A DNA stretch of 64,000 nt from Effrenium voratum (lineage: Eukaryota > Sar > Dinophyceae > Suessiales > Symbiodiniaceae). Shown piece after piece: positions 1,253 through 58,190 of the stretch; position 1 is the stretch's first letter; the number at the start of each line of letters is the position of its first letter. The translations under genes were made by a program, and so were the position numbers. The stretch covers positions 978,338 through 1,042,337 of the forward strand of contig CAUJNA010000513.1 of assembly GCA_963377175.1 (NCBI GenBank). Reading direction: 5' to 3'. The notes under the pieces were generated by a model. That model did not search any database and was not told the DNA's origin. It was given only the letters and a program-made list of their open reading frames with translations.

Positions 1253-1672
1253 ATGACGTCGACCCCACGTTCGCACAGGAGCGTCGTGGATGAGGAGGCC
1301 ATCCTAGGTGGCCTCCGCTCAAGTGAGGACCTACCGGACTATGACTACGAGGAATTCGAGACAGGTTCAGCAGGTCAGGACCGCAGGGGTGATGATCCCG
1401 GTAGGGACACACCCAGAAGCCGTGGCAGGTACACTGACGATGGAGACGACCGCATTTTCCGTCAGGCCACCGATGATGAACAAGGACGAGGAGCTCGCTC
1501 CGGTAGGAGCGGCTCCGAATCAGGTTTCGGACAAGGTCATTTGGACTTCATCAGCGTGGCGATGAACATGGCTCGTCCTCACACGGACGATCAGGAGGCT
1601 CTGCCTAATCGACCCCCTAGGTCTCTTTTTCCAGGTGAAACGCCTCGGATCAGGTTGAGGACAGACCGTTAG
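1253..1672 (+). CDS. Gag-like protein, N-terminal part
   Basis: This is an acidic and Arg/Ser/Gly-rich, low-complexity reading frame just after the PBS, so by position it is the start of Gag. The first ATG is at 1253; the open frame extends upstream to a TTG at 1229. It stops at TAG 1670-1672, which lies in the loop of a GTTA mini-hairpin, and coding continues in another frame from 1684. No domain is recognised. It could be one segment of a longer Gag broken by a frameshift. Confidence 0.5.
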   Translation: MTSTPRSHRSVVDEEAILGGLRSSEDLPDYDYEEFETGSAGQDRRGDDPGRDTPRSRGRYTDDGDDRIFRQATDDEQGRGARSGRSGSESGFGQGHLDFISVAMNMARPHTDDQEALPNRPPRSLFPGETPRIRLRTDR

Positions 1673-1683
1673 GTCCGGGAACC

Positions 1684-2475
1684 ATGGTTTTGGCTCCGAG
1701 AGATATCTCGGGTCGATCAACAGGTTCTCAAAATCCAGGTCAGTTTGATGAGCAAGAGGAGAGGGCGTTTGCGGGCATCGGATACGATGCCCTGCTGGCG
1801 TCGACCGCAGGTTGGGGCAGTAGCGTGAAGCAAGAGTCTGATACTAATAGGCCCAACCCGGTTTCGACGACCAATTTTGAGTTCAATGATGATGAAGATT
1901 ATGCCGCATTTGCGGATCGTCGTGAAGAGGAAGAAAGTTTGTCGTATCGGAGTGCAAGGAGCCGTGCTGCTGCGAAGGCTAGGAGTCTCTCTCGTGGAGC
2001 TGCTAGGGACCTTCGTGTGGACACGGATACTCGGAGTGCAAGAGAGCGGATCGGGGACAGTCGGGGCACCCTTAGGGGTTTGGAGGCCATCCATGACGGA
2101 AGAGGACCGGTAGGTCCTCCCGTCATTGATCCCGTCCCAAATGTTCCCCCTTTTCCCAACATCCAGTTTGGAGGACCGCTGCATCAGAGAGTCGGGGATA
2201 TGAACCGGGGTACTGGTTCATCCAGGATTACTCAGCGAGCCGCCGATGTGGTTGAGGCAGGCGCGAGGGACGGAAGACTTGCTAGTGCGCTTGGAATCGA
2301 GGATCGTCCGCCGATCGCTAGCCCGTTAGGGCGGGATCTCAGCGACCTCGAGCCACTAAGGTCTAGCAATGAGTTCACTCCCCAATGGGGATCAGCAAGC
2401 AGGGAACGAAGTGCCTCTGCGAAGAGGCCGTCATCCGTAGCCGGAGGGACCGATAGGCTAGCCCTGGACCGATAG
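1684..2475 (+). CDS. Gag-like protein, second segment
   Basis: A 263-codon frame opens at ATG 1684 (accATGg context). The product is charged, Ser/Arg/Asp-rich and mostly disordered in appearance, in line with the preceding segment. It ends at TAG 2473-2475, again inside a GATA mini-hairpin. No domain is identified. The frame differs from 1253-1672 and from 2499-2744, so Gag is either interrupted or read with shifts. Confidence 0.5.
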   Translation: MVLAPRDISGRSTGSQNPGQFDEQEERAFAGIGYDALLASTAGWGSSVKQESDTNRPNPVSTTNFEFNDDEDYAAFADRREEEESLSYRSARSRAAAKARSLSRGAARDLRVDTDTRSARERIGDSRGTLRGLEAIHDGRGPVGPPVIDPVPNVPPFPNIQFGGPLHQRVGDMNRGTGSSRITQRAADVVEAGARDGRLASALGIEDRPPIASPLGRDLSDLEPLRSSNEFTPQWGSASRERSASAKRPSSVAGGTDRLALDR

Positions 2476-2498
2476 GTTCAACGCCGCAGGATGAAGAC

Positions 2499-2744
2499 AT
2501 GTTTGATCCTGCTGATGTTCATATTCATTCCACTCCTGAATCTCATGGGTCGAATGTCAATCCCAGATCCGGCGATAGCCGGGGAAGGGGTATCAGTCCA
2601 ATCAGGCCGCCCAGGATCGCTGATGCTCCTGTTTCCGACCCCAGGGGACGTAACAGAGTTGAAAGGGTTCCTGAGAGGATCGAGATATCGACTCATTTTG
2701 CCATTCCTTTTGCATGGAACTCACCTGACCGTTCAGTAACCTGA
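2499..2744 (+). CDS. Gag-like protein fragment
   Basis: An 81-codon frame is rich in Pro, Arg, Asp and Ser and resembles the compositional style of the neighbouring Gag segments; the competing frame from 2491 is hydrophobic and looks like a shadow. It includes the 2569-2582 hairpin. It ends at 2744, after which the likely coding frame moves again before the coiled-coil part. Confidence 0.35.
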   Translation: MFDPADVHIHSTPESHGSNVNPRSGDSRGRGISPIRPPRIADAPVSDPRGRNRVERVPERIEISTHFAIPFAWNSPDRSVT

Positions 2745-2900
2745 TCTGATTAGCAAAAGCATTGAGAGTGTTTGCAACGGAACCGGATGCCTCGCCTCGT
2801 TCAAACAGCTCCTGGATATGCAGGTCAAATACTTCCTTGACCCTAGCATCTCCAGATTCAGCAGAAGAATGGGATCTCAGAGCTGGAGGAGAATCGGCTC

Positions 2901-3956
2901 ATGAAGGACAAGGTCGGCCGTCTAGCTACCGAGGTTGCGACCCAAGCGGATGCTGATCGTATGCGAATGATTGTTCAACGGTTTGCCGGTGAGGTCATTC
3001 CCGATAGCAGGGCCATTGTCAGGCAGGCTATCGATGAGCAAAGTGAGGTTGTGGATCAGAGGATCAACTCGTTATCCGACGAGGTTCGGGAATCCGTTAG
3101 GGACCTCGAAGGCGGTATGAGTCAACTTCAAAAGCTCGTTGAGGACAAGCAGTATGCTATGTTCAAGAGCCAAGGTGCCTTTCAGGATGAGATCTACACT
3201 GAGATCGGGAATTTCGAGAAGCAGCTCCATTCGGTTGAGAAGGCCGTTAGGCTGCTCTCATCCTCGGGTGTTCCCGCTGCATCAGGGCCCGATAGGGCTG
3301 CTAGCAGTGGAGATGACGCAAGCTTTCGGGACTTGGTCGCAAGAGTCGATAGACTCCAAGGTGAGAGCGATCGGCATGGGGAATGGGCCACTTCGGCCAT
3401 TGACGAGCTCCGCGCTGAGTATAGGTCCTTTGCGGACCGAATGCTGGAGTCCCGGAGTGACGGGGGATCTCTTCTGGCCGATAGGCCTAGGGATCTGGAA
3501 TCACCTCAGGATTGGCGCGGGGCAGTCGAGGAGATCAATCGGAAGATTCAAGATCTCGCGAACAGAGTCCGTCGTCAAGCTCGGAATTATGACACCGTCG
3601 TCGAGGATGTTAGGGCTGTGAATGGCCAAATTGTAGTGTTCAATGCGAACACGCAGAGACTCCAGCAGGCTATGGAGGAGATAAGGACAAGATTGGTTGA
3701 TCTACCTTCGACCACGGATGAGATGCAGGCCGTCGGTAGACGGGAGCTCGTCTACTATCGTAACATGTTAGATGCGTGTATGCGAAGGCTTGGGGCTACC
3801 GAGAACAACATCCGAACTCTGAACGAGATGAACACTCGAGTTATGTCTCAGTTTGCCGATCTCGAGGGGAGTATCGAAGATGCTGCTGGCTTGGTCCAAC
3901 TTCCTAAAGGGCCAAGAGGCTCCGTTTTCAAGCCTTCGGAGCTTTGTCGGACATGA
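2901..3956 (+). CDS. Gag-like coiled-coil protein
   Basis: The 351 residues have strong heptad character (many Glu/Arg/Leu/Gln) over most of the length, with Ala/Ser/Gly links in the middle. The same frame is open upstream from about 2850, so ATG 2901 may be internal. The position between the LTR and the zinc-binding and protease parts fits a structural Gag segment. The last about 15 codons may already be foreign sequence, because the nested block begins near here. No catalytic motif is visible. Confidence 0.55.
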   Translation: MKDKVGRLATEVATQADADRMRMIVQRFAGEVIPDSRAIVRQAIDEQSEVVDQRINSLSDEVRESVRDLEGGMSQLQKLVEDKQYAMFKSQGAFQDEIYTEIGNFEKQLHSVEKAVRLLSSSGVPAASGPDRAASSGDDASFRDLVARVDRLQGESDRHGEWATSAIDELRAEYRSFADRMLESRSDGGSLLADRPRDLESPQDWRGAVEEINRKIQDLANRVRRQARNYDTVVEDVRAVNGQIVVFNANTQRLQQAMEEIRTRLVDLPSTTDEMQAVGRRELVYYRNMLDACMRRLGATENNIRTLNEMNTRVMSQFADLEGSIEDAAGLVQLPKGPRGSVFKPSELCRT

Positions 3957-4294
3957 AGGCTTCAAAAAGAAGCACACGCGGTTTGTCGTACATCCGCGTA
4001 AACTTGGGAAGCGCCCAAACGTCATCCCGCGCCGGGCGCGCCGGTTTGGCCACACACGCGCGCCAGGCGCGCGCGCTTGAGCCAGATAGTGGAAACTTGG
4101 TGGCACTCGTAGCACGCGCCACGTAGGCGTAGTGTACAGGGGCGCGCGCCCGGCGCGCACGCAGACGCGTCGGGGCGCGCTCTCAGCGCGCGCCGGGCGC
4201 GCGCAAACGTGACTCGAGCCAAAAAGAGCGAGGAAAAATCAACAACTCAACGCAAATTCTGAAAAGCTTCCCCCCTCCCCCCCCCCCTCCCCGC
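3957..4294. other. Extremely GC-rich palindromic stretch before the PLV
   Basis: No gene is seen. From about 4020 to 4210 the sequence is dominated by overlapping GCGCGC and CGCGCC palindromes able to form strong hairpins. It is the left remnant of the DNA into which the PLV inserted and ends in a C-rich tract. The boundary with copia sequence is not resolved. Confidence 0.5.
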
Positions 4295-37982: not shown

Positions 37983-38110
37983 GTACCAGGCGTTCGCTGT
38001 CCTTAGGAGCTTTGGTTACTTGGCGTTTCCCAAGAAATTGTCATCCACAATACTTCAGGCACTCAAACACTAAGATGGTGTCAGGCTTTGCTCCGGCCCG
38101 CGAAACTTGT

Positions 38111-40766: not shown

Positions 40767-40946
40767 GGCCGGCGCAGCGTGAGCCAAGCTGAGCCGGGCC
40801 CAGGCGGCTAAACAATGCCAAATGGCAGGAACGTCAACGCCAAGTGTGCAACTTTTCCTTTTTTCCAACAGTTTCACAAACCAGCTGAACAAAGTGCGGC
40901 AATGCTGAAAATCACAAACAAAACCTTGAGAAGGGCGCGCAAACAA

Positions 40947-41340
40947 ACCCTAACAGGAACTTCTCCCTGCAAACGTGTCGCTTTCAGTTTGAGTTTCCAT
41001 GTGTTGAACACCCAAGAAGATTTTCGAACCCCGTACAAACAAATTGACACCGCTTGTTTCCTGCACAGGGGAACATAGGTGCCATATAAGTTCGTTGAAG
41101 CTTGCTGCGGTGACCTCAGGATGCTGAGTCTGATCAACCCAGTGTACCGGCGTGCGCCAACTTCGAACTTGCTAATCCGTTGGATGGATCGCGCAGTGTG
41201 TAACACTCACACGCGAAGCAAAGTCGCCGTTTGCAGACTTCGGACTGCTGCTCAAGCTGAAGGCTCCGTTCATCATCGCACTCAAGACATTGTGAGCCTC
41301 ACGGCTCCAAGGGCCCGAAAAGGAGGCATCTCGGCGCTTT
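40947..41340. other. Junction region between nested block and copia sequence
   Basis: No gene seen. Copia-like coding in the 41514 frame opens at about 41340 after a stop, so the right edge of the nested block is within or near this stretch. No clear terminal repeat or duplication was found. Confidence 0.4.
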
Positions 41341-41513
41341 AGGTTGCTCATGACCATCCTCGTGGACACGGGGGTAGGCCTAACGGGGGATACCACGCTT
41401 TCGCCGGACAGGGGCACAGGATCAGGTCGCCGACGCCCACGCCTGGAGATGGAAATGCACGAGACTCTGTACCACCGAATAGGCCGGGTGGAGGCGTTAG
41501 CCTAACTGATCAT

Positions 41514-42773: not shown

Positions 42774-43300
42774 GGGGAGATGATGGACGGGACAAGTGCA
42801 CTAAGTGTAGCAGGATTCCCGAGCCTGGTTTCCCTCTTGTTCCTTGCGTTGGCTGTGGAATGAGGGCGTGTGAGGTTTGCTGTCCTTTGCCTGCTAGGCT
42901 GTGTGAAAGTTGCAGGATTACCTCATGTACCCCGATAGGGGCTCTGATTTCCACCGTTGTCGAAAAGGATCGATTCCATCATAAGTGCAACACGATCGTG
43001 CTGCCTGCTGAGCCGACAGCTGATAAGCTGCGGGAGTGGCTCTCCGAGATAAAGGAAAGGGTCAGGAATGCTTTCAGTTTTGACTCTGACTACGCGTTAG
43101 CGTGGATTTCAGAGACTGAGAGGCTTGACTATGACGCTCTTGGCGGACCCTGCAAGTACCCGGTTTTGGATTCCAACTTCACGAGCGCTATCAGGGAGTG
43201 TATCAAGACGAGGGCCGTTAGGGACAAGATGAATCGCCTGACCGAGGCCGCTCAGAATATGGATCCTTTGCAGGGTATCAAGGGGAGACAGATCTTGTGA
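42770..43300 (+). CDS. Copia Gag-like segment with zinc motif
   Basis: 176 codons; the frame is open upstream of the TTG at 42770, so it is a continuation rather than a separate gene. CTKC, CVGCGMRACEVC and CESC form another multi-Cys zinc site, followed by a helical region. The product passes into the next frame near 43290 by a shift. Confidence 0.5.
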   Translation: MRGDDGRDKCTKCSRIPEPGFPLVPCVGCGMRACEVCCPLPARLCESCRITSCTPIGALISTVVEKDRFHHKCNTIVLPAEPTADKLREWLSEIKERVRNAFSFDSDYALAWISETERLDYDALGGPCKYPVLDSNFTSAIRECIKTRAVRDKMNRLTEAAQNMDPLQGIKGRQIL

Positions 43301-44289
43301 ACCATCTGCAGACCGGAGTCGAGGACGACCAGACCTTCAAGATTGCCGAGCTGACTAGTCTCAAGTGTCGGCAAACAGGTCACTCCGACGATGAGGCCAG
43401 GCTCCGGAGTTATCTGAGCACCTGGGACAATCTCATTTCTGGGATCAGGAGGAAGATCGACGATGGGGTACTACTAGCTGTGTTCATTGAGAACGTTCGT
43501 CATCTACGCTGTATGCGGCCTGACATTGAGAGGTGGGATCGCGATGTGACCGTTAGGTCTTTCGCGTGGCTTTATAAGGCTTGTCAGGACTGTGTCGAGC
43601 GGTGGCAGAAGCGTCAGAACACGCTTCAGATGTACCAGACCTTTCATGAGCAGAGGTCACGTTCAGGCTCTCACTCCCGTGAGAGGGATCGGAATCCTGG
43701 TGCTCCTGGTGTTGTGCGGAGGTATGACCCACTTGCCAGGAAGAGTGATACGAGCCCCTCGAGGTCCATTATGTCCGGGAGGGACGGAAAGCCGAGATTA
43801 TCTTCGCCCGGAAAGAGCAGCCAGCGAGACAGAGCGTCTCCTGGAAGAACCAGCCAAAGGGACAAGCGGACTCCGTCTCCCAAGTCGCCGAGAAGGCAGT
43901 CGCCTGCTGGGCCTGCTGACCGATCCTGCTGGGAGTATGCCAAGACAGGTAAATGTCAACATGGCCGAGACTGCAGGTTCGAGCATGATAAGAGCCCGAG
44001 GAATCCTGCCGCACCCTCTACCCCAAGGACTGGCGATAGGCCCGTTAGGGACAAGCCAATGTACTTTGGGTACTGCTACGACTGGATGTACGGCAAGTGC
44101 ACTGCCCAGCAATGCAAATACTTGCATCAGAAGCCGCCCCCGGGTACGAAGCCTATTACGCCTCGTACCACTGCTGGTCCTGTTGTTGAAGATGAGGAGG
44201 AGGAGGCCCCTAGGTCGCCCACGCCCAGTCCTCCCGATAGGGAGGCAAGGCGTCTTGACAGCCCTGCTCAAGGATTGACGGATTTTTAG
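43297..44289 (+). CDS. Copia nucleocapsid-like protein with two CCCH fingers
   Basis: 330 codons. The N-terminal part is helical and Gag-like; the middle is Ser/Arg/Pro-rich; two CCCH fingers follow, CWEYAKTGKCQHGRDCRFEH (about 43927-43986) and CYDWMYGKCTAQQCKYLH (about 44073-44128). CCCH fingers usually bind RNA and stand where retroelements carry a CCHC knuckle. It starts at GTG in the track frame, so it is likely expressed by readthrough or shift from the preceding frame. Confidence 0.65.
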   Translation: MNHLQTGVEDDQTFKIAELTSLKCRQTGHSDDEARLRSYLSTWDNLISGIRRKIDDGVLLAVFIENVRHLRCMRPDIERWDRDVTVRSFAWLYKACQDCVERWQKRQNTLQMYQTFHEQRSRSGSHSRERDRNPGAPGVVRRYDPLARKSDTSPSRSIMSGRDGKPRLSSPGKSSQRDRASPGRTSQRDKRTPSPKSPRRQSPAGPADRSCWEYAKTGKCQHGRDCRFEHDKSPRNPAAPSTPRTGDRPVRDKPMYFGYCYDWMYGKCTAQQCKYLHQKPPPGTKPITPRTTAGPVVEDEEEEAPRSPTPSPPDREARRLDSPAQGLTDF

Positions 44290-44327
44290 GTGGGGCGGGC
44301 CGTTACCCTAAGGCCGACTGTGTTGTT

Positions 44328-46976
44328 GTGGCGTGTCCCGTGATGTGGGCTGCTGCCCCAGCTATCGGTGGGTTTGCACCGGGGTGTCTCCCGCCTGGCG
44401 TTAGCCGTTGGGAGAAAAGTGAGTGCGGCGCGTTGTTTTTCGCTGGCACTACGGGCGGAGGTCCCAGGTGGGACCAGGTCGTTTGGAGAAGGACCACTGA
44501 TGCCTATGGGACAGTCATCGAGGATGTCGGCGTGGATTCCGGTGATCGTCGATCAGTCCTATTCAGGAGGCTTCCCAAAAGGACTAACATACAGACAGTG
44601 TTTTGGTACTGTGATGAGCCGGAGGCGGCGTTTTCTTGGAGGAGCAAGTATTTTCAGCGTGGTCCCGATAGGGAGCCTCTGAAAGTCAAGATTCCTGATC
44701 TCCCTGACGTGTTTGTTGTGTCCATTGAGAACGAGAACACAGGCAGAATCGTTAGTCGCAGTAGAGAGGCTGGATACAGCCATCCTAACGCGATCAAGTT
44801 TCCGTCTCGCAAGAGAATTGCTAGGGAGGTTCAGAGTGCTCTGATAAGAGCTGCGGCTGTTCACGCACAAGTGCTCTTGGACAACGATGAGGACATCGAC
44901 ACGAACCCTGGAGATATACGGGGTCATCGTGTTGTCCGAAAGCCGAAGTACACCCGGAAGGTTGCTGCACCTGTTGGATACAGCGGGGTGAGATGGCTGG
45001 TTGATACTGGATGCCCAATGGATTTGGTCGGCCTTGGCGATCTGAAAGGACCCGATAGGGCCCTGATTGCCAAAGGCGGGCATACGCATGCGTTGCATAC
45101 TGCGAACGGGGCAACCCGTACTGCTGGTCGTGTTGATGCCGATGTTGGCAATCTGGACGAGGTGATTGAGGCACACGTCCTTGAGTCTACACCATCCATC
45201 ATTTCAGTTGGAAAGCGCTGTATGGATATGGGCTACTCCTTTGCTTGGGCTGCAGGGTGTAAGCCCACCCTTACGTGTCCTTCGGGCCGTACAGTGACAC
45301 TGGATGTCATCAACAATGTGCCGTACCTTCCTCATGGGGACACCCAATTTGTGTCCCCTACTCCTGATGACAGTGAGCCGCTTCCCGCTATGCCAGCTCC
45401 TGGCGTTGCATATCATGGAGTCGAAGCCCGTGAGGCGCCGACCTGCAAGCCTGCAGTGACGATAGAGAATCGCTCGCAGGACACCTGGAGAACTGAGCGG
45501 TCAGGTCATGTCGTGAAGGAGCACCGAATTCCGCGCAGGGCGAAGTTTTTGCCCACTGATGGTGATTGTCCCGTTAGGGTCGATCAGCTCAGCAATTACA
45601 GGAAGACGATCATTCACCGAAATGGGGTTACCCATGAGGTGCTCGTTGATGCTCTGTGGGAGTTATCTGAAAGGGATCAGCATGCGATAGCATCTGATGT
45701 CCCTTGGACGGGCGAGACGTGGTTTCAGGTTAAATGCGAGACCGTTGCTCTTCCCGGGGAGGCCAAGCAGGGGGGTGAGGGCGTTAGCCGTTCACCACCC
45801 ATTCCTGGCCCTGGGGAGGGAGACGATGGCGACATCGTTGAGATTAACTTCCTCTCCGGGCTGCGCACCGAAGCGGAATGGCGTGCAGATGCTAAGACGC
45901 TCCGCCATATGCTTACGCATCTTCCGAAGAACCCGTATTGCCCGCACTGTCAGCGAGCGAAGATGGAGAATGTCAAACTTCGCCGCAAAGGTGGTGCTGC
46001 TGCGCATGACGTGGCCAACTTCGGGGACCTAGCCACAGCTGACACTATGGTGCTGAGGGGACTGAAGGATCGAGGATTTCACGGCGAAGCGGACGCGATA
46101 GTGTTCTATGACCTCGCTACTGACTACCTCGATGTCCTTCCTGTGCAATCCAGATCTCGTAGCAATACGCTGGAGGCCTTTCGAAGGTTCGCAGGGGGGC
46201 AAACTCTGAAGTTGGTGTACAGCGATCAAACCCCAGAGCTGAAGAACGCTGTTACAACACTTGGCGCTATACACCAGCTCTCCACACCGGGCATGCCCAA
46301 GACCAACGGCTTGATAGAGAACAAGGTCAAGCTGGTTCTCCACGGAGCACGTGTGCTTCTGCGTCAAGCCGGGTTTGAACCTCGATGGTGGCCATTTGCC
46401 GTTAGGCATTTTGCAATGGCAAGAAACATTGAGAATCGAGGTGACGGATCACCCTGGACGCGGCGTCACGGTGACGGAAACTTCAGCGGAGTCATTCTGC
46501 CGTTTGGTTGTCTGATCGACTTCTACCCCATCGCTCCCAAAATTCGCAGGGATAGAAAGGGGGGGGTTCAAAACGCCCAAAACGCCATCAGACACGCTAA
46601 CAAGATTGACTCAGAGGACGCCGATGAAGGAGGAGACCACTGGATCGTGAATGAAGATGAGAAAGTTGTCACTCGCGTCCATGTTGAAGTGCGAACTAAG
46701 CTGTTTGTCCCGATAGGGGCTAACTGCCCGGTCAGGATTAAGGATCTTGGCAGAAGACGAAGCACAGTCATCAACTATCTTGATGGGTCAACGGAGTTTG
46801 TCGTTGATGAGAACTGGCTTCAGGCTGAGCATGACCGAGGAGGCGATCATGAATGGACTGGAGAGACCCATTTTGACTGTGATTTCGATCAGATCGATGA
46901 GGATGAGGCTGAGATTTACGAGAACGAGGAGTACGAGCCAGAGGGAGGACGAACCGGACTTTGTTCCTGCAGATGA
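44328..46976 (+). CDS. pol: Copia pol: aspartic protease and integrase
   Basis: 882 codons (the first ATG is 44343; GTG 44328 is unlikely). A retropepsin active site WLVDTGC is at about 45000. The integrase has the zinc-binding H...H...CPHC region (about 45903-45955), then catalytic DTM (about 46044), YSDQTPE (about 46220) and NGLIENK (about 46305). Two copies of a module of about 70 residues ending WTGETxF flank the integrase (about 45525-45730 and 46675-46880). The frame shifts near 46945. Confidence 0.8.
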   Translation: MACPVMWAAAPAIGGFAPGCLPPGVSRWEKSECGALFFAGTTGGGPRWDQVVWRRTTDAYGTVIEDVGVDSGDRRSVLFRRLPKRTNIQTVFWYCDEPEAAFSWRSKYFQRGPDREPLKVKIPDLPDVFVVSIENENTGRIVSRSREAGYSHPNAIKFPSRKRIAREVQSALIRAAAVHAQVLLDNDEDIDTNPGDIRGHRVVRKPKYTRKVAAPVGYSGVRWLVDTGCPMDLVGLGDLKGPDRALIAKGGHTHALHTANGATRTAGRVDADVGNLDEVIEAHVLESTPSIISVGKRCMDMGYSFAWAAGCKPTLTCPSGRTVTLDVINNVPYLPHGDTQFVSPTPDDSEPLPAMPAPGVAYHGVEAREAPTCKPAVTIENRSQDTWRTERSGHVVKEHRIPRRAKFLPTDGDCPVRVDQLSNYRKTIIHRNGVTHEVLVDALWELSERDQHAIASDVPWTGETWFQVKCETVALPGEAKQGGEGVSRSPPIPGPGEGDDGDIVEINFLSGLRTEAEWRADAKTLRHMLTHLPKNPYCPHCQRAKMENVKLRRKGGAAAHDVANFGDLATADTMVLRGLKDRGFHGEADAIVFYDLATDYLDVLPVQSRSRSNTLEAFRRFAGGQTLKLVYSDQTPELKNAVTTLGAIHQLSTPGMPKTNGLIENKVKLVLHGARVLLRQAGFEPRWWPFAVRHFAMARNIENRGDGSPWTRRHGDGNFSGVILPFGCLIDFYPIAPKIRRDRKGGVQNAQNAIRHANKIDSEDADEGGDHWIVNEDEKVVTRVHVEVRTKLFVPIGANCPVRIKDLGRRRSTVINYLDGSTEFVVDENWLQAEHDRGGDHEWTGETHFDCDFDQIDEDEAEIYENEEYEPEGGRTGLCSCR

Positions 46977-47595
46977 AGTAGAGGTCGAAGAGACTAGTGT
47001 CACTACAGCCCTGCCAGCCGAGAAGAAGGGGCGGGACTTCATCAAGATCGAAGAAGATCCGAAGTTTGCTCCATCGTCCAAACCAGGCCTGTTCTTAGGC
47101 TATCGCCTAGAACCAGGGGGGCTATGGAAGGGTGACTATCTCGTTGCTGATCTCGAGCACATCCAAAGAGGTCTCAGGAAGCCAAGTGTTCACCAGGTCA
47201 AGCGCATCTGGAAGAACCCTGAGGAGCCCTATGTGTTCCCAATGTTGGCATCCTACGATGCTAGGACTCGGACCATTCGGGAGGCGTTAGCTGACCGAAG
47301 GGCCGAAGTGAAGCCGAGCAAGAAGGTCAGGGATGAATTCGACTTCGATGAAGGTCGGTTTGATGACCCTGATGAGGACGATGATGATGACCATCGGGAC
47401 GAGGGGGGCGGTAGCTCATCCAAGTCCGATGGAATCAATCAGAACCAAGCCGCCCTAGACGGTGGTGACGCATGTGTCTCAGATTACTGGGAGCGGCATG
47501 ACGAGGACAGCGCTTGGTACCGCATCCACGTCGAAGTGCGGAAGAAGTTCTTCGGGGCAACCGATGAAGACCTTCCCCCAGGTGGTCCTTCGCCT
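46930..47595 (+). CDS. Copia pol segment, interrupted by insertion
   Basis: Coding continues in the frame of the open region 46747-47622 from about 46930, with a KPGLFLGYRLEPGGLWKGDY segment typical of the copia integrase C-terminal/GKGY-like region, an acidic Asp-rich run (47375-47400), and the start of a third WTG-type module (YRIHVEVRKKFF). It is cut by the foldback element at 47596. Codons before 46930 in this frame are shadow. Confidence 0.6.
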
Positions 47596-47628
47596 GGGGT
47601 CTTGTTAGCGCAATTAATTTAATTTGGG

Positions 47629-50103: not shown

Positions 50104-50744
50104 TTATTCCCCAGGCTTCCACTTTAAAGCCTGTGCTCCCGTGATGGCCTGTGCCTCTTTCACTTCCTCCGGAGTGCCATCCTCACATTCTTCATCTGGC
50201 AACTTGTAGGTCAAGGTCTCCGTGCCGTCCTCTATCCCCCACTTGGCCGTGAGATCCTCCGCGAAGCCCTTCTGATTGATTAGGTACCCACCGTCCTTCT
50301 GGTAGATCTCGAGCCCGCAGAATCGCAACGGCACCTTGCTTGTGGCTCGTTCTGCCGGCGATAACCTCCAGTTTTCTCCACGAAGCCAATGATCCCCTGC
50401 ACGCTTTTGTCCTGGCCTCCCGAAGCATAGGATATATCCGTAAAGACCTCCACCATGTTCTGCTGTCTCCGCATCCCCAATCCTTGCTTGGACGCCCATC
50501 CCTCAGCTACCCCATAGTTCAGGCCTCGGTCTGCTGTGGCCTTCACATACTTCAGCACGTCCTTGCCCATCTTCACCACATGTTTTCCTTTCTTCGTCCA
50601 CCTCGACATTGCTGCCACCGCCACGTTGATGTCTGGCCTTGTCTTCGCCGCCAGCCACACAATCGTGCTTGTTAATCGAGAAGCGCTTGGTGGCAGTTGC
50701 TGCCCAGCCCAAAGATCTTGGAGGTAAAAAGAAGGGCCCGACAC
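50104..50744 (-). pseudogene. Captured fragments of another copia RT/RNase H
   Basis: On the minus strand, AAKTRPDINVAVAAMSRW, a YVKATADRGLNYG segment and EVFTDISYASGG (RNase H start) come first. Then FCGLEIYQKDGGYLINQ follows, although in intact copia RT this part precedes the TRPDI segment. The order shows rearrangement or two captures. No full domain remains. Confidence 0.6.
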
Positions 50745-50783
50745 GATTGCCCCAAATTAAATTAATTGCGTTAACAAGACCCC

Positions 50784-51853
50784 AGTCGCAGGAGGAGCTC
50801 GACACCGTTAGGGTCACGCATATGCGGGGACTTGATGCCGTTGGCAATTGGGTAAGGGATGATCGTCATCATGACGCTCCAAATCATCGGCATTTTACAC
50901 GTGGATTTTGGACAGGTGTGACCATTCTCTTTGACAAGGGATGCGCTCCCCACGGTAGGTTCAGGCCGAAGGAAGAAGCGAAGCCTGCCGGTGACTCGAA
51001 GAAGGGTCACAAGCTGCACGGAGATAGGATCGACTATGACCAATCCGCCGATAGGCGTGAGAGGCCATATGCCGGCACCGGGAAGCCCAACTCTATTGAC
51101 GCTGATAGTTGGAGACAGATGTCTGCCCGATCACGGGAGATATACGTTCAGGCCGAACGGGAGATATCCCTGAGGGAAGAACGGCGTCGAGAACATCCTG
51201 AGAGGGACCCGGCTGCCCCAGCGCCAGGCCGCAAGCTTCTCATTGAGTTTGCTTGCGAGCCCGACTCACGCTTGTCTGCTGTGATGATGGAGTGTGGCGG
51301 CGAAGCAATTCGCGTACACATTGGCTCTTTTGACATCACGAAGGCTAAGGACGTTAGTCGGCTCATTGCGATCATCGAGGATAATCCTGGGTGTGATCTC
51401 TGGGCATCAATTCCGTGTGGACCATGGAGTACGTGGCAATATGTGAATCTTTCACTTCACGGTGCCGAATTTGCATCACATTTAAATGACCTGAGAAGGA
51501 ACTCTCAGGTGATGTTTGCAGCATTCCTGCGAGCCTCCCGAGCCGTGAGGCGAGGAGGGGGCAGGGTTGCATTTGAGTGGCCTAGACACTGCCTTGGGTG
51601 GAAGCAGCCGTTCATGCAGAGGTTTCTTGCTGATCCTGATGTCAAGACCGTTGATTTTGACGGCTGTGATTTCGGAATGCAGGACAAGGACGGTGTGCCG
51701 ATCAGAAAGCAGTGGAAGGTTGCGACGACCTCCAAGGAGCTCATTGAGGAACTCTCGGGTCGTAAATGCAAGCACGAGAAGGGTTACCTTCATGCGCGCA
51801 TTGAGGGGTCGGTGACACCGACGACTGCCCTCTATCCGAGTGTATATGTGTGA
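50784..51853 (+). CDS. Copia pol: methyltransferase-like module
   Basis: The open frame starts inside the foldback element (50639), but copia coding resumes at 50784, finishing the third WTG-type module (FWTGVT). From about 51230 a Rossmann-like domain shows LLIEFACEPDS, a WASIPCGPWS motif (about 51403-51430, like the Pro-Cys motif of C5 methyltransferases) and FEWPRHCLGW. Similar modules recur in dinoflagellate copia-type proteins from memory. Activity is unproven. Confidence 0.6.
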
Positions 51854-52643
51854 GGCGATCGTTGGAGCTTGGTATCCGAACGGCACATTCAAGAAGGTCG
51901 CGAGTGCTATGCCGGTTGAAGTTGATCCGGTTGAGCAGCGATGGAAGAAGCCCAACACATTGTACGTCAGTCTTGACAGCGAGAATGCCAAGATCCCGAC
52001 GCGGGCTACTTCGGGAAGTGCGGGTTTGGACACCTATGCCTCTGAGGGAGTGTGTATTCCCGCAGGGGGGTCAGGTATAGTTAGCGCCGGGATCTCGATA
52101 GAGATGCCTGCGGGAGTGTATGCCAGGATCGCCCCTAGATCAGGTTTGGCTGTAAAGAACGGGATCGCTGTAGGCGGTGGAGTTATCGACCCTGATTATG
52201 ACGGTGAAGTCAAGGTCATCCTCTGCAACCATGGGGATGAGGAGTTCATCGTAAGGCCTGGGGACCGCATTGCGCAGATTGTGCTGGAGCGTGTCATGCT
52301 CATTGATGCATCGATCGTTCCCAGGAAGGTCAGGCGGAAAACCGATAGGGGATCCGCTGGCTTCGGAAGCACAGGTATAGCCGCTGCCGCTCCAGTAATA
52401 GGATCTGATGGAAAAAGTTTCGAGTTCTCTATGCCCAGGGGGGAGATATCCCTCTCGCATCGATCGAAGAACTCAGGAGCCTTTCCTCCCTTGTACGCTT
52501 GCGTCGCTAGACCAGTCAACAAGAAGGAGCAGGCTGGAAATGCCAAGGCAAAGGCTGCTCTGCAGAAGGAGTGGGACAAGTTGACCTCGCAGGGATGCTG
52601 GGACCTGTCCACCGTCCAGGGGGTGGTTCGATGTTGCGGCTAG
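51840..52643 (+). CDS. dUTPase domain in copia pol
   Basis: All five trimeric-dUTPase motifs are present: SAGLDTYA, PRSGLAVKNGI, GVIDPDYDGEV, RIAQIVLER and RGSAGFGSTG (about 52015-52380). It is therefore probably active and would lower dUTP during reverse transcription. dUTPase is known in several retroviruses and a few retroelements but is unusual in Ty1/copia. The track start is GTG; ATG 51846 exists, but the domain is probably part of the polyprotein. The frame shifts in the G5 run near 52620 into RT. Confidence 0.85.
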   Translation: MYMCEAIVGAWYPNGTFKKVASAMPVEVDPVEQRWKKPNTLYVSLDSENAKIPTRATSGSAGLDTYASEGVCIPAGGSGIVSAGISIEMPAGVYARIAPRSGLAVKNGIAVGGGVIDPDYDGEVKVILCNHGDEEFIVRPGDRIAQIVLERVMLIDASIVPRKVRRKTDRGSAGFGSTGIAAAAPVIGSDGKSFEFSMPRGEISLSHRSKNSGAFPPLYACVARPVNKKEQAGNAKAKAALQKEWDKLTSQGCWDLSTVQGVVRCCG

Positions 52644-52833
52644 GGCCCGGAAGGAAGGGGAGAAGATCCATGTTGGTAGGATTTTCGACATCTGCGTCGA
52701 GAAGAATCACGAACTTCCTGAAGACGATCCGAATCGCAAGTATAAGGGTCGAGTCGTTTTTGAGGGATGTTTTGTCCGTGATGAGATCGGGCATTGGGCC
52801 TTATTCTCCGAAAACACCTCCTGTCCCGCCACT

Positions 52834-55062
52834 ATGGCAGCGGGAAAGATGGGTGATGCTCACGGGCTGCTTCCCGGAAATCTTCTGGAAGTGAGTGATG
52901 GGGAATCGGCGTACACTCAGGCTCGTCTGAAGGGAAAGAAGACCTGGGTGAGGATTCCTCGTGATCAGTGGCCTCCTGAGTGGTTCGACGGTAGTGGGAA
53001 TCCCAAATATAAGGATCCAGTCGTTGTCCTCGTGCTCGCACTTTACGGACATCCTGATGCTGGTACCTTTTGGGAGCAACACTGTGAGGCTATGCTGAAG
53101 AAGGTCGGATACGTCAAAGTGAAGGATTGGGCCAGCGTGTTTAGGCATGAGGAGCTTGACCTTTTCCTTGTCGTGTACGTGGATGACTTCAAGATGAGTG
53201 GGCCGGCTAAGAATATCGCAGCCGGATGGGCCCTGATATCGAAGGTCATCAAGATGGAGGAACCTAGACAGCTCAAGAGATATCTTGGCTGTGAGCATGA
53301 GTTCACACAACAATTGGTCAAAGGTCATTTTGATCCGAGGCTGGCGTGGACAGTGGGCAATCCTCCTGATAAGGAGCAGCCCGACTTGAGGTTTGGTCCG
53401 GAGGGGTTACTCTCTAAGGACATTCACAAGCCGGAGACTACCATAAGGTTCATCAAGTACAGCGAGAGTAGCTTCATGCAGGCGTGTGTCGATAGATACA
53501 TAGAACTGTGTCAAGGGAAGTATCCGAAGAAGCTGCAAAAGGTTGAAACGCCATTCCTGGATGAGAGCAAGCCGGAGTTCGACGAGAACCCTGTCAACCC
53601 TGAGTTTGACAAGCTCTTCAACCAGGCGATGGACGTGGAGACCCTCAACGCACAGCCTGGATGCCTCGGTAACGACGCGGCGGCAGTGCTGATGAAGGTT
53701 CTCTACGGAGCTAGGATGGGCAGGTACGACCTTATTCGTCCTGTGCAGGCGTTAGCCAGCCGGGTTACGAAGTGGAATCACCTGTGTGACCGCAAGCTCC
53801 ACAGGCTAATTTCGTATGTGAACTCCACACTTGACCTCCATTTGTATGGTTGGGTGGGCGATAGCCCAGAGTTCATCGAGTTAGTCGCTTACTGTGATGC
53901 GGATCTGGCTGGGGATCGTACCGATGCCAAAAGTACATCGGGAGTGCTTATTTGCCTTGAAGCTGAGATCGTTGCCCTTGACCATGGAGTGTCTAAGGAG
54001 GGGATGGCGTTAGCTACCCTCTGGCAGCACGCCATCGGGAAAGGGAAGGAGACCCAGCCGTTTATCATCAACGTGCTGGAGGATAACGAATCGGCATGCC
54101 GAATCGTTATTACTGGGAATAATCCCAACATGCGCTATATGTCAAGGACACAGCGCATTGACATCTCCTGGCTCAACGAGCGTTTCAATGATGGTATTTT
54201 TCGGCTCGTTGCATGCCCGTCGCACTATCAAGGTGCGGACATTTTCACTAAGGCTTGCATCGACATGGTCGTATGGAACCGAAATTTGCATACCCTTGGT
54301 ATGTTCCTGCCGGGATACCTGCAGGAATATTTGTCCCAACCCACCCAACCCTGTATTAAGCCCCCTGCCGCTCCTGGGCTGCCCCCGCTTAGGGGGGTAC
54401 GCATGGAATCAGGTGCAAAATCCGGTTTCAATCGGCTCATAGAGAGGTTACTCTCTGAGTACGAGGGAATCGTGATCGACGAGGAAAAAGGAGGGAAAAG
54501 ATGTGAGAAAACCATTGTCGCGGATCAGGCGTTAGCCAATGCTCTCGCGTATAGTGAGTTTTGCAGGGTGGTTACGCTTCAAGTTGCTCCTGGGTACAGG
54601 AATCACATTGTTCGTTCTGGTAGGGTTGAAGGCGATAGCCTTTGTTACGTTGTTCTTGCTCTTAATGATCTTGCACCCGATAGGGTTGATTCCAGGACTG
54701 GGAAGTGGGGACAGACCAGAAAGCTTAGGGATAGGACCGAGAGTGCCGTTAGGCAAAGGTTCAAGAAAGCTTGTGATGCTCGGACGTGCGGATGTACTCC
54801 TATCATTCTCTACCGACCTCAATGTAATATTGTGAGGGAAGGCGAGGTAGAAGGAATCGCTACTACGCATGGATTCAACTGCAGGTCTGTTTGCGCATGT
54901 CAGTGTGGTCTCAAGAGACATGGTGTCGTATTCAGGTGTTTCTCTTCTAAGTCATTCAATTCGATTTGGAGCACTTGCAAGATGCGAGGAGGGGATACCC
55001 TCTCTCAGCATGACCGGTCACTTGCCGTTAGGAAGTGGTTGAATAACTTCATTGCCGCGTAG
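52834..55062 (+). CDS. pol: Copia pol: reverse transcriptase and RNase H
   Basis: 742 codons; the same frame is open from about 52624 and carries the RT start (KGRVVFEGCFV), so ATG 52834 is internal. The RT catalytic box is VVYVDDFKMSG (about 53170). RNase H follows with AYCDADLAGD (about 53890), EDNESA (about 54080), a RIDISWLNERF segment and ADIFTKAC. Downstream of about 54330 the sequence has no known domain and is Cys-rich near the end. Confidence 0.88.
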   Translation: MAAGKMGDAHGLLPGNLLEVSDGESAYTQARLKGKKTWVRIPRDQWPPEWFDGSGNPKYKDPVVVLVLALYGHPDAGTFWEQHCEAMLKKVGYVKVKDWASVFRHEELDLFLVVYVDDFKMSGPAKNIAAGWALISKVIKMEEPRQLKRYLGCEHEFTQQLVKGHFDPRLAWTVGNPPDKEQPDLRFGPEGLLSKDIHKPETTIRFIKYSESSFMQACVDRYIELCQGKYPKKLQKVETPFLDESKPEFDENPVNPEFDKLFNQAMDVETLNAQPGCLGNDAAAVLMKVLYGARMGRYDLIRPVQALASRVTKWNHLCDRKLHRLISYVNSTLDLHLYGWVGDSPEFIELVAYCDADLAGDRTDAKSTSGVLICLEAEIVALDHGVSKEGMALATLWQHAIGKGKETQPFIINVLEDNESACRIVITGNNPNMRYMSRTQRIDISWLNERFNDGIFRLVACPSHYQGADIFTKACIDMVVWNRNLHTLGMFLPGYLQEYLSQPTQPCIKPPAAPGLPPLRGVRMESGAKSGFNRLIERLLSEYEGIVIDEEKGGKRCEKTIVADQALANALAYSEFCRVVTLQVAPGYRNHIVRSGRVEGDSLCYVVLALNDLAPDRVDSRTGKWGQTRKLRDRTESAVRQRFKKACDARTCGCTPIILYRPQCNIVREGEVEGIATTHGFNCRSVCACQCGLKRHGVVFRCFSSKSFNSIWSTCKMRGGDTLSQHDRSLAVRKWLNNFIAA

Positions 55063-55378
55063 CATTTCGCTTGATCAAGCTGGCTCACACGCGGGTAACC
55101 GCACCACACCCACAGGCAGTTCAGGACACAGACAGGTCAGAATGCGAGGATGAAGCAGATATGCTTGTCACCAAGGTTTATCCTCTGCTTCTTGAAGGAC
55201 TGATTTGATTGATTTCTCAGTTTTTTGTCACAGTTTTGAGGGAGAAGGTCTCTGGCCGGTAGGCTGAGCCTTCTGGGTCGACTAGGGAATTCCGGCCGGT
55301 AGGCTGGGTTCCTGGATCGCTCGCGCCCGCGCGCTGCTGTCTTGGGTTCCGTGGCCGGTGGCCCGAACCTGCCGACGC

Positions 55379-55912
55379 ATGGCGGCCGCTGATGGGATGG
55401 GCATGGGGCGCTGCATGAGAACGCCCCCACGACCGTCCTGGGACTTGGCGATGGGGCTGAACATGGACAAGCCAAAGGCTGTGGCCCAGTGTCTGATTGC
55501 GGGATACCGCGATTGGACGGTAAAGAGTTATAAGGGACAGGAGCCGAAATGGACTACGATCGACCCAGGTATGGGAAAGATCGACCAGCTGATCCAGGAT
55601 GACGCCAACGGAAGGTTCGACGAGTTGGTTGGTCGGGTGTCTCCCATCAGCAAGGAGAAGCTCGACAAGTCCCTCGTTCCGTGGCCGGACCAGGAGAAGG
55701 TGATTCACTACCGGGCGATCAGGACTGCCGCGATAGTGGCGGAAATGAAGCACCAGGGAGTGGAGGTCACGGAGATGAACGCCGTGCATTTGGCGGCCAT
55801 CCTGTGCGCTGCGGTTCCGACGGATCCTGCTTTCTTGGTTCCCTATAATGACGCCTTCGCGTATGAGGAGTGTGTTTGGGGTTACCGGGAATGCTCTACC
55901 CGTGGACAATAG
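55379..55912 (+). CDS. Copia downstream protein, unknown
   Basis: 178 codons from ATG 55379 (upstream GTG ignored). Helical and charged, with no recognised domain. It overlaps the start of the next CDS by 65 nt in another frame, so the two may be one product joined by a shift. Confidence 0.45.
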   Translation: MAAADGMGMGRCMRTPPRPSWDLAMGLNMDKPKAVAQCLIAGYRDWTVKSYKGQEPKWTTIDPGMGKIDQLIQDDANGRFDELVGRVSPISKEKLDKSLVPWPDQEKVIHYRAIRTAAIVAEMKHQGVEVTEMNAVHLAAILCAAVPTDPAFLVPYNDAFAYEECVWGYRECSTRGQ

Positions 55913-57080
55913 TGTTGAGCCGGCTGCTCAGCCGTGTGGCGAAATGTGGGTTCGTGACCCGAAATCCTGGCCTGAGTGGAAGACGGCTCATCCCCAGACG
56001 ACCTTGGTCACGACGGTTGCCGACCAAGCAGAGGTGGCGTTTGGAGAGCATCCTCTATATAAGGGAGATGACTTTGGTGATGCGGATCACCACTGGACGG
56101 CGATCAGGGCCTGGATGAATGATAGGCCTAATGCACTGTTCACTCCTCCGGAGGTGGTTGTTGACGCCATGATGCTGACTGAGGGTAGGAACCGGGAAGA
56201 GATCGTTAGATGCTCTACCGGGCGGCGACTGTCTTCTGCGTGGTCAGTTAGGAAGTTTGCCACGGCCGATAGGCCAGGCATGCGGGGATACCTGCATGAA
56301 ATGGGACTGATGTCAGGGCTGGTCACCTCTATGGGGGACGCGATCAACTGGGAGCGTTTTCAGGTATTGCGGATCAGGCCCAAGAACCCGGAGAGTGCCA
56401 CTGATGTTGAGATTGGACCCGAAGATGGATGGGCCTTCTTCGACTTGGCACAGAACTACCGGGCACAGATGGACACCGAGAACATCCTCATCCACGGGAC
56501 TTCGCAATCTTCATTGTGGAGCATTCTGGGTGGTATGCAGGTTACTGCATCCACCGCGAGCGAGGAATCTGTGGGTGTTTGGACCTCTGTGAAGGCTTCT
56601 GAGGCTCTGGGGTATTGCACATTGTCGCACTACGGCCAGAACACGTGGGCGAGGGTCGGGATTTGCATCAAGCAGCCCGATGAGACCGAGAACCTGTTCG
56701 GGGACCTGCCCGCGTTGAGGAGCGTCAAGAGAGGGGCACAGCGGGTGTTCCCGAACGCGAGATTGGGGATCTGTGGTATCTGCATCAAGCTCCGAGGACC
56801 GAGCCCAAGGAGAAGACGCGTGGAGACCCCAAGGTTGAGGTCAAGCAGGAGAAGGGGAGCGGAGATGATGCTCCCGGCGATAGCCGGGGCTCAGCCGATA
56901 AGCAAAGGAGAGAGAGAAAGTCTCGTTGGGATCATGAGGTGCCTGCTAAGGAATCAACGAAGCGGGAGGCATCGAAGAGACCCGATGATGTCGACAGCAG
57001 GCCAGGTGCAGCGGCGAGAGAGGCAAGTGGAGACGACCTTCACTCCGCGCTTGGTAGGTCTTCGGCAAAGGAGGCGGTAG
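55848..57080 (+). CDS. ADP-ribosyltransferase-like protein
   Basis: 410 codons from ATG 55848. About 56490-56610 encodes ILIHGTSQSSLWSILGGM and then GVWTSVKASEALGYC, a pattern like the PARP/ART fold, where His binds NAD and the second motif normally has Tyr; here Trp replaces it. The last about 90 codons are Arg-rich and probably out of frame; coding likely continues in the 57619 frame from about 56795. Activity is uncertain. An unusual partner for an LTR retroelement. Confidence 0.45.
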   Translation: MTPSRMRSVFGVTGNALPVDNSVEPAAQPCGEMWVRDPKSWPEWKTAHPQTTLVTTVADQAEVAFGEHPLYKGDDFGDADHHWTAIRAWMNDRPNALFTPPEVVVDAMMLTEGRNREEIVRCSTGRRLSSAWSVRKFATADRPGMRGYLHEMGLMSGLVTSMGDAINWERFQVLRIRPKNPESATDVEIGPEDGWAFFDLAQNYRAQMDTENILIHGTSQSSLWSILGGMQVTASTASEESVGVWTSVKASEALGYCTLSHYGQNTWARVGICIKQPDETENLFGDLPALRSVKRGAQRVFPNARLGICGICIKLRGPSPRRRRVETPRLRSSRRRGAEMMLPAIAGAQPISKGERESLVGIMRCLLRNQRSGRHRRDPMMSTAGQVQRRERQVETTFTPRLVGLRQRRR

Positions 57081-57619
57081 CGCCCCTGACGGCTTCCAAG
57101 GCAATGGCGAAGAAGCCAGAGGGGAGCGAAGTCAGGCTGCACTCGGCGGGGCGAGCTGCCGCAAGCCCGGTGGAAGGTCATTTCAAGACGCTACCGGATG
57201 CTTCTATGGTGGATGCGTTCCTGGGGATGTCATCCGATAGGGCGCTCAACAGACAGGTGAGAGACTTCATCAGGAACGGCGAAACAAGTTCGGCTTTGGA
57301 AGCTCTCAACCAGATCGTGGCGAACTCCCACGCGGGGCGGATACGTCGGGGTACCGATGTTTCCCGAACGCCGTCTAGGAGGTCCGATAGGACACAGGAC
57401 ACTAGGGATTCCCGAGAGTCGAGAAGGCGAAGATATCGACCACGGAGGGACGAGGATCGAGATCGTCGGAGAGACGATCGTCGGGATCATCGGGATGATG
57501 ATTCGCTGGAACGCGACAGAGATCGACGGAGAGATGATCGCAGGAGATCCGAGAGGGATCGCGACAGGGACCGTGCGCGGGGCGGACGTGACCGGAGGAG
57601 GCGTGATGATAGCCGGTAG
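56939..57619 (+). CDS. Arg/Asp-rich C-terminal region
   Basis: 226 codons; GTG at 56939 is not a real start, and the frame is open back to about 56795 as the continuation of the ART-like protein. A short helical domain (ASMVDAFLGM, RQVRDFIRNG) is followed by about 80 residues of RRRD/DRDR repeats, like spliceosomal RD tails. It probably binds RNA or splicing factors. Confidence 0.5.
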   Translation: MPAKESTKREASKRPDDVDSRPGAAAREASGDDLHSALGRSSAKEAVAPLTASKAMAKKPEGSEVRLHSAGRAAASPVEGHFKTLPDASMVDAFLGMSSDRALNRQVRDFIRNGETSSALEALNQIVANSHAGRIRRGTDVSRTPSRRSDRTQDTRDSRESRRRRYRPRRDEDRDRRRDDRRDHRDDDSLERDRDRRRDDRRRSERDRDRDRARGGRDRRRRDDSR

Positions 57620-58190
57620 GCTGATTCACGAGGGTTGCGGCCGGTAGGCTTGCACCCGCCCTCCAATGGTCAACGCTGCGGGGTGATGATCACGTTCATC
57701 CTGCACCGCTGAGGCGTGTTGTCCATGCCTCTCCTGTACCGCTGATCTGCTGCTGGTGATGGTCACCAAGAAGTAGTGTGAGTGAGCGGGGAAGCAAACC
57801 AGTGGAGGGTACTCCCAGGTTTGCAAAATTAGTATTCTATTTCAAGTATGCATGGTCAGGTGTACCTCTCGCCGATAGGCAAGGGTACAGATTGGACAAA
57901 TGATATCCTTTTTCATGGCTTCTGATAAGAATTAAACTTCTTGCATTTCTGATGCAAACAGTTGTGACCTATTGTCGTCATGTGGACTTTTCCACAAGGT
58001 ATGTTGGACAGCGTTACCCCGATTAATTCGGGGTGGTGGCGGGAATTTAATGCCCGGGATGTCGCGCGACTGCCTTTGTGGGTTTGCTCCACCGCTGACG
58101 GCGGTAGTGTCCAGCTGTTTGCGGACGTATGCGAGCAGTTAAATCCTATCAGTAAATGGCACGCTCCACCCGTCATATGACGGGCTCCTC
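57620..58190. other. Copia 3' untranslated region
   Basis: No gene. Three further GGTA/GATA mini-hairpin sites occur before about 57880; the rest leads to the polypurine tract. Confidence 0.5.

Follow-up and report, generated by a model that had tools for sequence, protein, structure and literature searches.

In this work we have investigated an array of small hairpins in a copia-type long terminal repeat (LTR) retrotransposon, which lies on the forward strand of a 64,000-nucleotide stretch of the genome of the dinoflagellate Effrenium voratum (the whole of this stretch is called the window). The element carries a conserved, sense-strand array of hairpins which share a loop code, G[A/G/T]TA, and a sister family carries a different array. 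We see an even chance that these are family-specific sites for an RNA-binding protein encoded by the element, most likely its Gag, which would use them to pack its own RNA; the binding and the packaging are both read from sequence patterns.

Hairpins in the window copy

We counted as a hairpin each G[A/G/T]TA loop whose stem has 4 or more Watson-Crick pairs, and scanned the copia sequence, which occupies three parts of the window (1117-3958, 41100-47596 and 50778-58200; 16.8 kb in total). They contain 194 G[ATG]TA sites, and 54 of these have such a stem, with the loop GATA in 31, GTTA in 13 and GGTA in 10 (Table 1). A fifth pair is present in 26 of the 54 hairpins, followed by a drop (8/26); with G-U pairs counted as well, the stem reaches 4 or more pairs at 75 internal sites by our own count from the site table. 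A preliminary description of this DNA had reported many C-G[ATG]TA-G sites with stems of 4-7 bp, and the pairing is stronger than it claimed: compared with the 54 perfect hairpins, 300 dinucleotide shuffles of the copia sequence gave 0.46 on average and 4 at most, and exchanging the 3' arms among the 194 sites 5000 times gave a mean of 1.9 and a maximum of 9. A comparison with codon-shuffled copies, which the same description had proposed, was carried out 1000 times on 13 open reading frame (ORF) segments (two of them read in a frame that has internal stops) and yielded a mean of 1.55 and a maximum of 8 hairpins versus 43 real ones. The number of G[ATG]TA words in the ORF segments is near the codon expectation (165 versus 153); what is unexpected is the pairing around these words and not how many there are. 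The explanation that the hairpins simply arise from codon usage, base composition or repeats is refuted by the codon-preserving, dinucleotide and arm-swap controls, by the homologous conservation and by the control regions described below, and with no point found in its support we regard its probability as negligible.

None of the 45 GCTA sites in the window is flanked by 4 Watson-Crick pairs (Fisher p 4.6e-6) and a single long GCTA stem, at 42493, appears once G-U pairs are allowed, which agrees with the earlier statement that such loops are essentially absent. A scan of the window copia and of two relatives for loops of 3 to 9 nt showed the 4-nt G[AGT]TA loop alone as prominent, and GCTA or pentaloop versions were prominent in none of the three sequences. 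A C-G closing pair is not required, contrary to the pattern first described: the inner pair of the 129 window sites with Watson-Crick closure is C-G in 73, G-C in 29 and A-T in 21.

The absence of antisense copies, also claimed at the outset, is nearly correct, with one antisense hairpin in each of the three copia parts (1, 1 and 1). The insertions, which had been considered free of hairpins, are so at 28001-41100 and 47597-50777, as is the flank at 58580-64000, but the stretch 3959-28000 has two sense hairpins and one antisense. The LTRs had been thought free as well, yet each contains one hairpin, GTCGC-GGTA-GTGAC with one G-U pair, whose loop is GTTA in the LTR of one relative.

Conservation among relatives

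The genome searched (G000, 1.156 Gb) includes the window, and the relatives of the window copia within it have mostly 80-90% DNA identity to it (75-96% by piece). We compared five relatives, which are a non-random sample of the family because they were picked for clusters of CCCGATAGGG. The preliminary description had suggested looking for the hairpins in related copia elements, and these five carry 59, 63, 28, 46 and 63 of them per 20-kb stretch on the sense strand and 0 on the antisense strand. The relative with 28 carries a large insert; in the four without it the spacing is irregular, with a mean of 312 to 330 nt. The longest relative stretch, of 21.96 kb, has 67 sense versus 0 antisense hairpins, and its six ORFs contain 57 compared with a mean of 1.6 and a maximum of 6 in 500 codon shuffles, distributed over the reading frames as 31, 8 and 18; none of its 41 GCTA sites is paired. 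Places elsewhere with single matches to the pattern CCCGATAGGG (L001-L008, L019-L021, L023, L025 and L026) showed no similarity to the copia element and had 0 to 2 G[AGT]TA hairpins each on both strands together, and the two loci which are similar to it, L022 and L024, had 3 and 19 on one strand.

Substitutions between the window and the five relatives at 146 aligned hairpins leave a distinct footprint. The background is 0.138 substitutions per site. The first to fourth loop letters have rates of 0.007, 0.205, 0.007 and 0.034, the stem has 0 to 0.09 at its eight positions, and the eight letters outside the stem have 0.034 to 0.151, with three of them (-8, -5 and +10) clearly under background. 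Loop letter 2 exchanges among A, G and T and is not C. Fixed loop letters with a free stem sequence are the footprint that would be expected of an RNA hairpin read by a protein. The covariation claimed in the preliminary description came from a comparison of unrelated sites, and the test calls for homologous copies; comparing these, we find that the stems are mostly kept. Among 33 changed pairs between the window and the relatives, 10 were changed on both sides and all of these are paired, 13 were changed on one side and remain paired, and 10 are broken (6, 7 and 6 when only distinct changes are counted). Among the five relatives themselves, where the background is 0.060, the 29 changed pairs comprise 7 two-sided and 8 one-sided paired changes and 14 broken ones (distinct changes: 5, 5 and 6). 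In ordered comparisons 881 of 913 G[AGT]TA hairpins (96%) are still paired, versus 999 of 1405 hairpins with other loops (71%), with 10 and 43 gapped cases set aside, respectively. Folding in the local context with ViennaRNA gave a mean pairing probability of 0.87 for 63 G[AGT]TA hairpins versus 0.31 for 82 hairpins with other tetraloops within the same sequence.

The window family is numerous in this genome: a first look gave 4965 candidates, and 85 of them were scored. The scored copies, the window copy aside, have 95-97% reverse transcriptase identity and many have open frames near 2566 amino acids, which suggests recent activity of the family. Among the 120 reverse transcriptase matches listed, Symbiodinium and Polarella are named, together with two bacterial names, one from a metagenome-assembled genome (MAG). 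A tblastn search of viral contigs found no relatives, plasmids gave no match to the LTR sequence 816-1180, and contigs of prokaryote genomes gave two short copia pieces in MAGs, which were used as tests. Near 56791-56807 one relative (C26) has about 6.7 kb of extra sequence with ORFs of 1468, 272 and 667 amino acids, none of which has a Pfam match (419 amino acids of the 667 were scanned). This part is absent from the window copy, and in the relatives the hairpins run through it.

A sister family with a different hairpin

A sister family in the same genome (L030) has about 59% reverse transcriptase identity to the window family, a dUTPase and, by eye, two CCCH fingers. We found no sense G[ATG]TA hairpins in 10 kb of this locus. 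An unbiased loop scan pointed instead to a hexaloop, NNANNC, paired at 29 of 671 sites over the whole locus (-log10 p 12.7; at most 4.7 in 30 shuffles), which resolves into a triloop [A/G/T]-A-N on one closing pair, X-X', with a bulged C beneath it. An outer stem of 4 is present at 25 of 278 sites with X-X' paired, versus 3 of 392 without, and in 24 of the hairpins X-X' is C-G in 11, T-A in 7, A-T in 4 and G-C in 2. The sister ORFs have 19 bulged-C hairpins compared with a mean of 1.15 and a maximum of 5 in 1000 codon shuffles, and the locus as a whole has 25 on the sense strand and 0 on the antisense strand. A second copy with 97% identity has 21 sense and 0 antisense hairpins in 7 kb, and a third, L031, has 16 and 0 in 6 kb. 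At the 18 sites which the 97% identical copy has in common with L030, 2 of 252 positions differ, one of them the free loop letter, with a background of 3.1%. The local pairing probability is 0.69 for the sister hairpins versus 0.37 for other hexaloop hairpins.

Stretches of the window family also contain 1 to 6 matches each to the sister rule on their antisense strand. Seven stretches have 26 such matches, and since 22 of these share sequence with a G[AGT]TA hairpin, they reflect an overlap of the two rules. We also considered whether the two families had inherited hairpin positions in common, and rejected this: of the 16 sister sites (out of 24) that could be mapped, 3 have a G[AGT]TA site no more than 30 nt away, where 2.4 are expected.

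Other copia loci and control sequences

A copia piece from a MAG (L027, 3.6 kb), in a record titled Chitinophagia and presumably of freshwater origin, has hairpins with YNMG tetraloops, 12 on the sense strand and 1 on the antisense strand, compared with 2.2 on average and 7 at most in 2000 codon shuffles (P below 1 in 2000, an optimistic value as the rule was picked after viewing the loops). Stems of at least 5 number 8, versus a shuffle mean of 0.89 and a maximum of 4. The unbiased scan gave 5.0 for a different pattern, with at most 4.3 in 60 shuffles. Because the rule was chosen post hoc and the scan is slightly above its shuffles, the sequence is no more than suggestive of a third code, YNMG, in this piece.

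Five further copia loci (L028, L032, L034, L035 and L036) gave no clear loop code; L028 is 3.0 kb long and offers little power, and the scan values of L034, L035 and L036 are under the shuffle maxima. L032 (G000 C2800:779000-787999) is 71% identical to the sister family in amino acids of the reverse transcriptase part and is without the sister code. Its best loop pattern is paired at 7 of 100 sites (-log10 p 5.4), a value matched by 1 of 60 shuffles, and its bulged configurations reach z values of 3.6 and 3.5 without a common loop. This weak pattern, a heptaloop, may represent one more code. L034 (G000 C867:22500-31499) belongs to a copia family of high copy number, in which one open frame extends over as many as about 5,560 amino acids. 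L032 and L034 each have two CCCH fingers (by eye), which rules out CCCH fingers alone as a predictor of the hairpins and indicates that the arrays belong to some families and not to all CCCH-bearing copia elements.

Copia-free control stretches were at shuffle level, except for one tandem-repeat stretch and two TA-repeat loci. The first is 28001-38000 of the window, which contains a tandem repeat and has a scan value of 6.5. The other two are L021 and L023, whose apparent loop codes (-log10 p 10.4 and 13.8) were rejected, with 6 of 11 and 14 of 17 sites lying in TA-repeat sequence.

Architecture of the element

The element (Table 1) belongs to the Ty1/copia group, with LTRs that have TG...CA ends, a target duplication, AAAAC, at both flanks and a reverse transcriptase of the RVT_2 type. 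The LTR ends were obtained from a 300-bp repeat (D3) and then extended by eye. The RVT_2 match has 24.3 bits, under the cutoff of 31.6, and many homologs carry PF07727. The 'Gag' label rests on the position and look of the ORF. The preliminary description had treated 1397-57650 as one continuous element; large insertions interrupt the copia sequence at about 3959-41100, which includes a low-G+C stretch, and at 47597-50777. The second of these insertions has terminal inverted repeats (GGGTCTTGTTAGCGCAATTAATT...) and a nested large palindrome at 48629-49221. Within the copia pol the dUTPase precedes the reverse transcriptase, as it does in the sister family. About 190 bp of the window copy (about 2701-2891) are inverted relative to three of the five aligned relatives, and the other two do not display this stretch. 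The LTR contains TTTGGCTCAAG at 877-887, as does the 3' LTR, and the LTR of one relative contains TTTTGGCTCAAG, a match to the 3' terminus of the spliced leader of dinoflagellates. The genomic RNA of the element may start with a spliced leader, or may once have acquired one. A comparison with Rfam 15 gave 0 matches above the gathering score in the window.

Table 1. Features of the copia element in the window. Coordinates of the hairpins named by their loop come from the hairpin listing of the window copia.
Feature	Coordinates	Strand	Remarks
5' LTR	816..1198	+	TG...CA ends, 383 bp (by eye); target duplication AAAAC 811-815 and 58584-58588
LTR hairpin GTCGC-GGTA-GTGAC	851..864	+	one G-U pair; loop at 856; 3' LTR copy, loop at 58241
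Copia segment 1 with hairpins	1199..3958	+	hairpin table, alignment to relatives
Hairpin GGTA	1396..1407	+
Hairpin GGTA	1498..1509	+
Hairpin GTTA	1664..1675	+
Hairpin GATA	1698..1709	+
Hairpin GATA	1777..1788	+
Hairpin GGTA	2105..2116	+	GAGGACC/GGTCCTC
Hairpin GTTA	2321..2332	+
Hairpin GATA	2570..2581	+
Hairpin GATA	2680..2691	+
Hairpin GATA	3287..3298	+
Hairpin GATA	3344..3355	+
Hairpin GATA	3476..3487	+
Hairpin GGTA	3731..3742	+
Copia segment 2 (gag, start of pol) with hairpins	41100..47596	+	hairpin table, alignment to relatives
Hairpin GTTA	41492..41503	+
Hairpin GTTA	41576..41587	+
Hairpin GATA	41834..41845	+
Hairpin GGTA	42187..42198	+
Hairpin GTTA	42602..42613	+
Hairpin GATA	42930..42941	+
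Hairpin GATA	43018..43029	+
Hairpin GTTA	43092..43103	+
Gag-like ORF, two CCCH zinc fingers (about 43918-43989 and 44074-44139)	43297..44289	+	Pfam zf-CCCH, scores below curated cutoffs
Hairpin GTTA	43548..43559	+
Hairpin GATA	44232..44243	+	CCTCCC/GGGAGG
Hairpin GATA	44663..44674	+
Hairpin GATA	44769..44780	+
Hairpin GATA	44839..44850	+
Hairpin GTTA	45623..45634	+
Hairpin GATA	45682..45693	+
Hairpin GTTA	46397..46408	+
Copia segment 3 (pol, 3' ORFs, 3' non-coding) with hairpins	50778..58200	+	hairpin table, alignment to relatives
Hairpin GATA	51046..51057	+
Hairpin GATA	51159..51170	+
Hairpin GTTA	51779..51790	+
dUTPase domain of pol	51840..52643	+	PF00692 1e-37
Hairpin GATA	52093..52104	+
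Hairpin GATA	52441..52452	+
Reverse transcriptase (RVT_2) and following part	52834..55062	+	PF07727 2.7e-5; homologs
Hairpin GATA	53275..53286	+
Hairpin GATA	53364..53375	+
Hairpin GATA	53856..53867	+
Hairpin GTTA	54443..54454	+
Hairpin GGTA	54589..54600	+
Hairpin GATA	54630..54641	+
Hairpin GATA	54675..54686	+
Hairpin GTTA	54744..54755	+
Hairpin GATA	54990..55001	+
Hairpin GATA	55154..55165	+
Hairpin GATA	55499..55510	+
Hairpin GGTA	55564..55575	+
Hairpin GATA	56264..56275	+
Hairpin GTTA	56537..56548	+
Hairpin GATA	56875..56886	+
Hairpin GGTA	57346..57357	+
Hairpin GATA	57382..57393	+
Hairpin GGTA	57611..57622	+
Hairpin GGTA	57804..57815	+	3' non-coding
Hairpin GATA	57920..57931	+	3' non-coding
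3' LTR	58201..58583	+	repeat and flank inspection

Discussion

The preliminary description interpreted the hairpins as an RNA-level signal in the transcript of the element. Such a signal, or one on plus-strand single-stranded DNA, is strongly supported by their sense-strand location, by their occurrence in three reading frames, in the 3' non-coding region and in the LTR, and by their conservation and predicted local folding. We propose that each G-[A/G/U]-U-A hairpin would serve as a small element for RNA recognition within the genomic transcripts of the family, in which 4-5 bp of any sequence would present the loop. Sequence evolution shows that loop letters 1, 3 and 4 are the ones read and that C is barred from letter 2. 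The exclusion of GCUA suggests that recognition rather than stability sets the loop rule. The roughly 55-70 sites, about three per kilobase across the transcript, would be bound by many copies of one protein, and the hairpins would mark the RNA as the element's own. Their likeliest use would be the selective multi-site packaging and compaction of the 20-plus-kb RNA into Gag particles, with the Gag-like ORF and its two CCCH fingers as the candidate binder. That the sister family has a different hairpin, and that the code of the other family occurs only as sense-strand strays, makes it most likely that the binder is encoded by the element and that the hairpins label its own RNA. Binding by a CCCH Gag and packaging would be compatible with the data, as two CCCH fingers were found in both families (by Pfam in the window family, by eye in the sister), and a role in packing fits the closest known case, the dispersed packaging signals of hepatitis B virus (HBV) and enterovirus E.

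Several observations weigh against binding and packaging by Gag. Stems are broken in 10 of the 33 changed pairs between the window and its relatives and in 14 of the 29 among the relatives, five further copia loci are without a clear loop code, and two of these, L032 and L034, have CCCH fingers all the same. The binder could instead be another ORF of the element or a host protein. Structure prediction of Gag from 11 sequences was uninformative (mean predicted local distance difference test score, pLDDT, of 34) and was discarded.

Could the loop rules be family-specific bar codes? Each family would then mark its own RNA for its own Gag by its own rule and so block cross-packaging, the codes having been wholly replaced between the sisters; we put this forward tentatively, as a possibility that falls somewhat short of an even chance. 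With the codes replaced and the positions unrelated, the RNA code and the binding protein would, according to the bar-code interpretation, have changed together.

Is it possible that a protein of the element reads the hairpins for some other purpose, such as nuclear export, a shield from decay or silencing, translation control or support of reverse transcription on a long template? Such roles would suit hairpins that are spread over the ORFs, the 3' non-coding region and the LTR, and the extra 3' ORFs of one relative, several in number and without Pfam matches, are possible binders. However, no single role is favoured and family-specific codes fit self-selection best, so we consider this alternative rather unlikely. 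A host RNA-binding or RNA-modifying protein, which might for example modify or silence the transcripts, is improbable. Hairpins with a loop code are what RNA-binding proteins typically take as substrates, but two families of one genome differ in their code, other copia loci have no clear code, and the element conserves the sites, which argues that they help the element. Still less probable are hairpins in plus-strand single-stranded DNA that act in reverse transcription or integration. Strand specificity does not separate RNA from plus-strand DNA, and small GNNA hairpins are stable in DNA as well, but neither the dense element-wide spread nor the stems free in sequence resemble the integration or priming sites that are known.

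How a retroelement selects its own RNA among similar RNAs is largely an open question. Here, the sequence by itself reveals a recognition rule in a many-copy family, with another rule in a sister family, and the coevolution of code and protein, multi-site packaging and loop-specific RNA recognition become directly testable.

Retroviruses usually select their RNA by hairpins that Gag recognises, the packaging signal Psi. This signal is confined to a single region close to the 5' end, whereas the copia array spans the whole genome. The MS2-type operator is a hairpin with a bulged base, with one high-affinity operator plus degenerate sites; the triloop and bulged C of the sister family are of like design but number about 25 in 10 kb. 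The sequences GUUA, GAUA and GGUA of the window family obey the rule of the GNYA/YNMG class known from enterovirus oriL domain d, a likeness at the level of sequence. GUUA and GCUA tetraloops are reported to have a UNCG-like fold, and this fold was suggested as the feature recognised by enterovirus 3C (PMC5633025); a GAUA-containing octaloop of mengovirus was unstructured by nuclear magnetic resonance (PMC3173479). In these viruses a genome has one or two such hairpins, in contrast to dozens in the copia element, and the copia rule is narrower, with GCUA excluded and U at position 3. In the titles and abstract openings of the literature on dinoflagellate and LTR retrotransposons, packaging signals and tetraloops, with subscription papers mostly outside the scope, we found no description of such a hairpin array.

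Dispersed packaging signals are found in single-stranded RNA viruses such as MS2 and satellite tobacco necrosis virus (STNV). They are also described for HBV, where RGAG loops contact the coat protein (PMC7612645), and for enterovirus E (PMC7793301). The copia array resembles them in having many stem-loops with a common loop motif in one genome RNA, kept among related genomes. It differs in belonging to an LTR retrotransposon, in a loop rule which is stricter in our own judgement and in having a sister with a different code, and its protein partner and role in assembly are putative. If the packaging role is correct, the array would extend the idea of multi-site packaging signals from RNA viruses to LTR retrotransposons, and with a clean signal.

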